Assembly (NCBI RefSeq): GCF_000313135.1
Contig: NW_004457730.1
Span: 5,127-36,656, forward strand
From: Acanthamoeba castellanii str. Neff
Taxonomy: Eukaryota; Discosea; Longamoebia; Acanthamoebidae
DNA: 31,530 nt
Direction of reading: 5' to 3'
In this document: piece after piece, positions 24,114 to 25,959 of the stretch
How positions within the stretch are numbered: the stretch's first letter is position 1
How the letters are laid out: the number at the start of each line of letters is the position of its first letter
Position numbers and translations under genes: made by a program
The notes under the pieces: model-generated
The model's database searches: none
What the model was told of the DNA's origin: nothing
Seen by the model: the letters and a program-made list of their open reading frames with translations, nothing else

Positions 24114-25959
24114 TTAGGCGACGTCGATCAGTTCGGAGGCCTTGGCCGTGCCGAAGCTAAGGGTGTGCTTGCACCGCAGGGGCGCGTGGCCGACGTGCTT
24201 CTTCCACTGGACGGTGACGCCCACGCTGAAGGTGCCCCAGCCCAGGCGAGTGACCCGGAAGGGCGCCTCCGTGACGCGCACTTGGGCCGGCGAGAAGGTC
24301 GGATGGAGGTCGTAGGTGACGTGGTCCACCAGCTCGGCCAGATCGCGGGCATCGTCGCGCCCGTCCGGCAGCTTCACGAACATCGTCCACTGGTGCGTGT
24401 TGTTGCCTCGGTCGGTCGGCACCGCCGCATGCTCGTTGCCTACCTCGATCACCTTCGGCACCTCCACCACCTCATCGTCTTCGTTCTTTTCCTTCTTCGT
24501 CTTCGTTTTCTTGCTCTTCTTCTTGTTCTTCTTCTCGCCGGCTTCCGCTTCATCGTCTTCTTCGCTGCTGCTGCTGACGTCGACCACCTCCATCCGGTCG
24601 ACCTGCCGCGTGAGTCGTTCGGCTGCCGCCTCGCGCCGGCGGTCGTCGGCCTCGGCCTCGCGCAGGCGGGCCATCTCCTCTATGGCCTCGGCCTTCTTCT
24701 TGTAGTACGGGTGCACAAAGTTGGGAATGCGGTTGAGCGGCACGGCGTCGCGCGGGCGCCACACGGGCACCGGGTCGATGGGCACGTCGAGCCGGGCCAT
24801 CAGGCCCTCGAACACCGGGTCGCACTTGGCCCAGATGCGCAGCGTGGCCTCGTCGTCGTCGGGCGTCGGCTGGAGGTTGATCAGTACCACCTGCCGGGCC
24901 AGGAACGGGAAGTGGGTGATGTGGCGGAGCGACATCGACGTGCCGGCGATGATGCACAGATCGGCCCGGCGGCAGTGGGTGTCGGCCTCGTTCCAGTCCA
25001 CCTCGTCCAGCAGCTCGCCAAAGTTGATGTGGGTGTCCTTGGTGCCGCAGTTGGTGTCGCGGGTGCCCACCATGCGCCCGCCCCAGCGGCCCTTCTTCAT
25101 CTTGAGGTCGCCCGGCGTGCCCTTGTAGTGGGCCGGCGGCGCGCTGCCGCACCGCGAGCAGGTGCCCACTTTGTGGTCATGCACGTGCGTGTGGCCCTGG
25201 CGGACGTGGTAGTTGCGCTCAAAGTCGTAGCCGCACCCCGAACACCGCTCGACGTAGATGTCACCGTGCAGGCAACACAGCTGCTCGTGATCCTTCAGTC
25301 CCGCCTTCCTGCTCACCAAAGTTTGTTGTTGCTTGTCAGACACTCGACCGCACACACACACACACACACACACATGCACACAGCACACAGCACACACGAC
25401 ACGACACGACACGCACAAACATGGTTGGGAAGGAACCTGTAGATGCCGTCGAGGTTGGTGGTGACGACGTAGTGGGCGAGACCCAGTCGGATGAGGGTGG
25501 CCATGGCCATGTGGGTGGGCGTGGGCTGGGCGTCGCACATGTCGATCTTGACTCGGGCCTTCTTCTCCTCGCGCGCGGCCTCGGCCTTGAGCTTGGTCAG
25601 CTCCGACTCGTCCTCGGCCGTCCTTCCGGCGCCCAGCAGCTCCAGCTCCTTGATCTTGCGCTTGGTCCAGGCGCCCGACGGGCCGCGGTAGTCGCCCACG
25701 CCGGCCGACGTGGACACTCCCGCGCCCGTAAAGAACACTGTGTACTTGCTTTGCTTCACCTGGCGAAGAGGAACCAACCAACGAACAGGGCGGAGTCAGT
25801 ACTGACATCACAGAAGAAGACAAGATCTTTAGAACTCGGTAGATAAGAACTAGATATCATGTTTACCATCTTGGCGAGGCGGTCGAGCTTCTTCTGGAAG
25901 AAGGGGTCATTCTCTTCATTGAATTCCCGCACGCGGGTGGAGTCGACTGTGCTGGCCAT
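24114..25959 (-). CDS. sirtuin (SIRT6/7-like) fused to a C-terminal YEATS domain
   Basis: Predicted NAD-dependent protein deacylase joined to an acyl-lysine reader, presumably chromatin-bound. Exons 25867-25959, 25437-25759 and 24114-25308 join in phase to 536 aa. Sirtuin core, about residues 35-345: NAD loop GAGVSTSAGVGDYRGPSGAWT split across residues 43-63 (DYRGP.G.WT as in SIRT7), TTNLDGIYR at 131-139 (family QNVDGLH; Gln and His replaced), catalytic His153 in LHGD, zinc cysteines C161, C164, C189 and C192, then GTSMSLR and NLQPTPDDD (compare SIRT6/7). A coiled, acidic/Lys-rich linker follows (about 370-440). The YEATS domain is residues 444-536 (nt 24114-24395): HQWTMFVK, YDLHPTFSP, VRVTEAPF, GWGTF and HAPLRCKHTLSF. 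His474, Thr476, Phe477 and Trp496 sit where the acyl-lysine pocket lies in AF9/GAS41. Enzyme and reader share one exon, so the fusion does not depend on splice prediction. Confidence 0.87.
25350..25414. repeat. CA / CACGACA repeat in sirtuin intron 2
   Basis: A (CA)n run followed by GCACACAGCACAC and ACGACACGAC units, all inside the intron between 25308 and 25437. Confidence 0.8.

Follow-up and report, generated by a model that had tools for sequence, protein, structure and literature searches.

A sirtuin with a C-terminal YEATS domain in Acanthamoeba castellanii and its relatives in other amoebae and a rhizarian alga

The stretch of DNA analyzed here (the window) comprises 31,530 nucleotides of Acanthamoeba castellanii str. 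Neff (contig NW_004457730.1, positions 5,127 to 36,656), and all positions given below are window coordinates. At 24114..25959, read on the minus strand, lies a three-exon gene whose product carries a sirtuin (SIR2) domain followed by a YEATS domain. A protein of this kind, AcSir2, was cloned from A. castellanii by Joo et al. in 2020, who also named its YEATS domain (PMC7376869, cited throughout from the part of the paper available), and the accessible text of a 2023 review repeats the YEATS domain of AcSir2 (PMC10113681). AcSir2 and YEATS are also mentioned in PMC10015121. The original prediction, made from the sequence of the window, was thus wrong in assuming that no sirtuin-YEATS protein had been described. 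The published AcSir2 (ACA1_084880, XP_004358245) has 536 amino acids, a 1611-bp reading frame, a mass of 60.3 kDa and a YEATS domain at residues 443-524. We take the window gene to be AcSir2 because length, mass, reading frame, terminal primers and domain positions agree, the comparison covering the published description rather than the deposited sequence. The protein is therefore already known; what our analysis adds is a conserved SIR2-YEATS family in Amoebozoa that extends to at least one lineage of rhizarians.

In detail, exon 1 (25867..25959) encodes residues 1-31, exon 2 (25437..25759) residues 32-138 plus two bases of codon 139, including the first part of the SIR2 core, and exon 3 (24114..25308) takes up codon 139 at its last base, ends with the stop codon and holds the catalytic His, the zinc site, the linker and the YEATS domain. 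Both introns (107 and 128 nt) are of the GT-AG type, and the spliced translation gives a coding sequence of 1611 nt for 536 residues (60.3 kDa). The primers for reverse transcription polymerase chain reaction printed in PMC7376869 fit this reading frame exactly at either end. For the SIR2, linker and YEATS parts the guanine-cytosine content at third codon positions is 0.93, 0.83 and 0.91, respectively, and hence gives no sign of a foreign origin of the tail.

Scanning the whole product with Pfam returned SIR2 (PF02146) at residues 43-265 with 78.4 bits (cut-off 24, E 8.8e-22) and eukaryotic YEATS (PF03366) at residues 442-524 with 77.1 bits (cut-off 22, E 1e-21), which bears out the prediction of both domains in one chain. 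The SIR2 domain (24930..25726) is split by intron 2. It contains the predicted catalytic His153 (25266..25268), the NAD-site residues N133 and D135, and the four predicted zinc cysteines, which form two CxxC pairs, C161/C164 and C189/C192 (25149..25244). Where the motif (T/S)QN(I/V)D is usual, though not required for PF02146, residues 131-135 read TTNLD (25448..25462), so that the canonical Gln is Thr132. The available text of PMC7376869 gives TQNID among the motifs of AcSir2, in contrast to TTNLD in the window. The best match and the nearest solved structure of the sirtuin half are both SIRT6, which places it in class IV (SIRT6/7). Human SIRT6 aligns with SQNVDG against TTNLDG of AcSir2. AcSir2 also carries additional residues, both in the zinc region and in the segment that links GAWTK with the PTPTHM stretch; to our knowledge SIRT6 has no YEATS domain.

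The YEATS domain (24153..24401) shows its motifs where they had been predicted, with HQWTMFVK starting at residue 444, LHPTF at 473, VRVTEAPF at 482, GWGTF at 495 and HAPLRCKHTLSF at 513. The residues of a putative aromatic acyl-lysine pocket (His, Ser/Thr-Phe/Tyr, Tyr/Trp) are likewise found at the expected places as H474, T476, F477 and W496 (24237..24305), their positions following the AF9/Taf14 numbering. The proposed structural check also came out in favour of a YEATS domain, as the tail is modelled at a predicted local distance difference test (pLDDT) value of 93 and its fold matches GAS41 and YEATS2; these two tie by fold, while YEATS2 is the closest by sequence. The prokaryotic pYEATS model reached 36.6 bits on the whole product, above its own cut-off of 26.9. 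With the tail alone it gave 40.1 bits compared with 81.1 for eukaryotic YEATS, and a prokaryotic origin of the tail was rejected. The YEATS domains of YEATS2, GAS41/YEATS4, Yaf9 and Taf14 share the fold of the AcSir2 tail and belong to members of transcription, remodelling or acetyltransferase complexes. AcSir2, unlike these proteins, joins the reader to an eraser in one chain.

Between the two domains follow a predicted long helix (about residues 339-381 in the numbering of P0001; 24582..24710), seen in the AlphaFold2 model of P0001 with block-mean pLDDT values of 89-95 up to residue 380, and a charged linker of low confidence. Within this linker lies a lysine-rich run (residues 398-411; 24492..24533) that is likely a nuclear localisation signal, in line with the nuclear EGFP fusion reported in the accessible part of PMC7376869. 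A lysine-rich linker is not a trait of the family: both landmarks could be located in 49 of 53 YEATS-bearing proteins, and 12 of these 49 have such a linker.

To find relatives, a whole-protein homologue search was used in which scoring was limited to the 7996 candidates sharing most words. All counts of relatives given below refer to the best 120 of its 155 matches. PF03366 was found in 52 of these 120 proteins and PF02146 in addition in 49; the other three (P0097, P0103 and P0107) have YEATS without a SIR2 call and appear to be cut at the front. This contrasts with PMC7376869, which in its available part describes the YEATS domain as absent from all other SIR2-like proteins. A domain rescan of ten proteins, eight fusions and two without YEATS, agreed with the listing in all ten cases. 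Among the holders of the fusion, Balamuthia mandrillaris (P0005) and Pelomyxa schiedti (P0038), both Amoebozoa, are named by the sources, and P0032 (TAXON_ID 552666) comes from the chlorarachniophyte rhizarian Partenskyella glossopodia, so that the search for the same pair in other protists, as proposed with the original prediction, was successful. We take the label m51a1 (P0025, P0056) to stand for Mastigamoeba balamuthi and Bigna1 (P0058) for Bigelowiella natans. A single rhizarian match could stem from contamination of a culture transcriptome; against this, P0032, P0030 and P0058 group on a branch of their own in the tree of SIR2 cores (Shimodaira-Hasegawa-like approximate likelihood ratio test 86, not starred). 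The occurrence of the pair in several amoebae and a rhizarian alga indicates a family and not the oddity of one species.

Two further searches added little. A search with the YEATS region only gave 2 proteins among 137 candidates, both already present in the whole-protein matches, and we ascribe this meagre yield to the shared-word filter, since the whole-protein search lists 52 YEATS-bearing proteins. When an alignment of 18 distant fusions served as the query (best 120 of 441 matches), five new ids appeared, of which four have SIR2 only and P0125 has YEATS only; no new two-domain protein or further organism name came up among these matches. By titles and abstract openings of the matches listed, with most subscription journals outside the coverage, no SIR2-YEATS fusion from outside Acanthamoeba was found in the literature.

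The functional positions of both domains are strongly conserved among the YEATS-bearing relatives. Leaving gapped rows aside, the GAG motif is kept in 38/38 (14 gapped), the catalytic His in 49/49, the catalytic Asn and Asp in 48/49 each, and the four zinc cysteines in 49/49, 49/49, 52/52 and 51/51. In the pocket, the positions of His474, Thr/Ser476 and Phe/Tyr477 are kept in 52/52 and that of Trp496 in 51/52, so that all four are intact in 51 of 52 proteins, the exception being P0056 with Ala for Trp.

We think that AcSir2 is probably a nuclear class IV (SIRT6/7-type) sirtuin that is tethered by its C-terminal YEATS domain to acylated chromatin and removes acyl groups nearby. Tethering, ligand and acyl preference are what we infer; both domains, their order, the catalytic His, the zinc site and the pocket residues are observed. 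The YEATS domain would bind acetyl- or crotonyl-lysine on histones and thereby keep the enzyme docked on acylated chromatin, while the flexible link would allow the SIRT6-like core to remove acyl groups from adjacent lysines. As the ligand of the reader would be of the same kind as the substrate of the enzyme, the protein would free itself while clearing the region. A preference for crotonyl groups is suggested solely by general knowledge of YEATS domains. A self-targeting deacylase is the most sensible reading of AcSir2, and a chain that unites the reader and the eraser of related marks would be a simple design by which lysine acylation could be removed in a self-limiting or spreading manner. 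The published work, as far as its text is available, reports a full-length complementary DNA (cDNA), classification as a class IV sirtuin, a mostly nuclear EGFP fusion, elevated levels during encystation and a link to growth and cyst formation; nuclear extracts from cells over-expressing the protein gave a deacetylase signal raised fourfold (PMC7376869).

Several findings speak against this picture, and they are partly those that would favour other explanations. No YEATS domain is listed in 68 of the 120 homologues, of which some are probably fragments, and among the Pelomyxa relatives P0057 and P0096 have no YEATS call. In addition, the genome of the window (G000; 38.4 Mb in 250 contigs were scanned) contains a paralogue at C9:174546-175776 which shares 99% identity with residues 29-388 of P0007, a Neff protein that is itself 81% identical to AcSir2 across 67% of its length. 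The frame of this paralogue stops 62 residues past the SIR2 core, before any YEATS, and the genome YEATS scan found none on contig C9. The reader is thus dispensable to the sirtuin, and the paralogue provides a natural control for its contribution. Moreover, the YEATS domain drifts more quickly than the core, at a mean identity of 0.37 compared with 0.65 for SIR2 over 40 fusions, and the distances of the two domains are weakly correlated (40 of 52 fusions taken in, 12 fragments dropped). Drift and absence from many relatives would suit a YEATS domain that acts mainly as a scaffold or complex-assembly module, or that binds a non-histone acylated partner, with the enzyme not aimed at histone marks; so would the decayed readers of two archamoeba-type paralogues, Pelomyxa P0065, which lacks LHPTF and GWG, and m51a1 P0056, which has GAA for GWG. 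The pocket, however, has remained near-invariant while the rest of the domain diverged, suggesting that ligand binding is its conserved function, and we regard this alternative as unlikely.

The sirtuin half raises doubts of its own. At the position of the motif Gln, 47 of 50 ungapped YEATS-bearing rows have Thr and none has Gln, suggesting that catalytic strength or the reaction itself may differ. The deacetylase signal of 0.1185 optical density units (OD)/min/mg fell to 0.0678 when no NAD+ (nicotinamide adenine dinucleotide) was added, with 0.0265 for the vector control (values from the available part of PMC7376869), so that, once the control is subtracted, some 45% of the gain was kept and the dependence on NAD was partial. 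The residual signal could be due to NAD+ carried over with the extract, but an assay of nuclear extract and not of pure protein falls short of proving an NAD-dependent deacetylase. SIRT6 has activities besides deacetylation, and the title of a structure entry mentions fatty deacylation. With SIRT6 as the nearest structure, the missing Gln and the partial NAD dependence, the sirtuin half may be mainly a long-chain deacylase or an ADP-ribosyltransferase rather than a deacetylase. The retained catalytic His, Asn and Asp and the fourfold deacetylase signal on over-expression argue against such a switch, which we also consider improbable. As to the fusion itself, an error of assembly or gene prediction can practically be discounted, and no point in its support was found. 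Zinc half, linker and YEATS share a single exon, as the original prediction had pointed out for zinc half and YEATS; with the published primers fitting both ends this makes a splice-prediction artefact very unlikely. An equal-length cDNA is in print in the part of PMC7376869 available, the same architecture is found in independent sources, and the YEATS exon is a copy of none of the three further YEATS loci that the genome scan revealed.

The history of the fusion was addressed with a tree of SIR2 cores (41 fusions including that of the window, and a hand-picked 25 from the 72 proteins without listed YEATS, some of which may be cut fragments; midpoint root). A scan for hidden YEATS domains in these 72 proteins found two, P0104, where the match runs off the end, and P0065 with its decayed tail. 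The fusions are scattered over both sides of the tree and the YEATS label is mildly clustered: it requires 16 changes (7 of them forced by starred branches) compared with a mean of 20.1 after shuffling, and 15 of 500 shuffles were as low. This scatter would fit an old fusion with repeated loss, and several gains would fit too. It is possible, and we propose it tentatively, that SIR2-YEATS represents an ancient and widespread eukaryotic reader-eraser predating the split of the amoebozoan and rhizarian holders named above, in which YEATS steers a SIRT6-like TNLD deacylase and the reader was repeatedly lost or decayed in paralogues. If so, pairs with and without the reader would be available inside single genomes, including that of Acanthamoeba.

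A Cys among the last four residues is found in 28 of 125 proteins. AcSir2 of the window has none, and the YEATS-bearing P0030, P0032, P0058 and P0117 end in CC, CCG or CLVS, resembling prenylation or acylation signals, which would be odd for nuclear sirtuins.

In the window, the gene is flanked by three copies of an Ala/Glu-rich, coiled-coil-like gene with near-identical ends (WWLERELHERRAYLPASKGGYKKGTH), at 6856-8457 (minus strand), 22100-23948 (plus) and 27109-28995 (plus); none of the three long open frames has a Pfam match. The divergent neighbour at 26350-26889 (plus) belongs to the Arf family of small GTPases (PF00025, E 1.7e-70), and pieces matching RhoGEF, Core-2/I-branching enzyme, FERM, SH3 and myosin head lie within 3851-20250. 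Two tRNA-Ala calls by ARAGORN fall inside alanine-rich coding repeats and were taken as false.

Another YEATS locus of the genome (L022, G000:C15:1126500-1131500) shows, at 572-4511 of that locus and on one strand, pieces of Arm repeat, SAM, protein kinase and YEATS in this order. Read from these unjoined exon pieces, it is likely a kinase-YEATS gene, on which no paper was found by title among the matches listed. With the SIR2-YEATS family profile its YEATS piece scored 67.8 bits, the highest value of the genome's other YEATS pieces.
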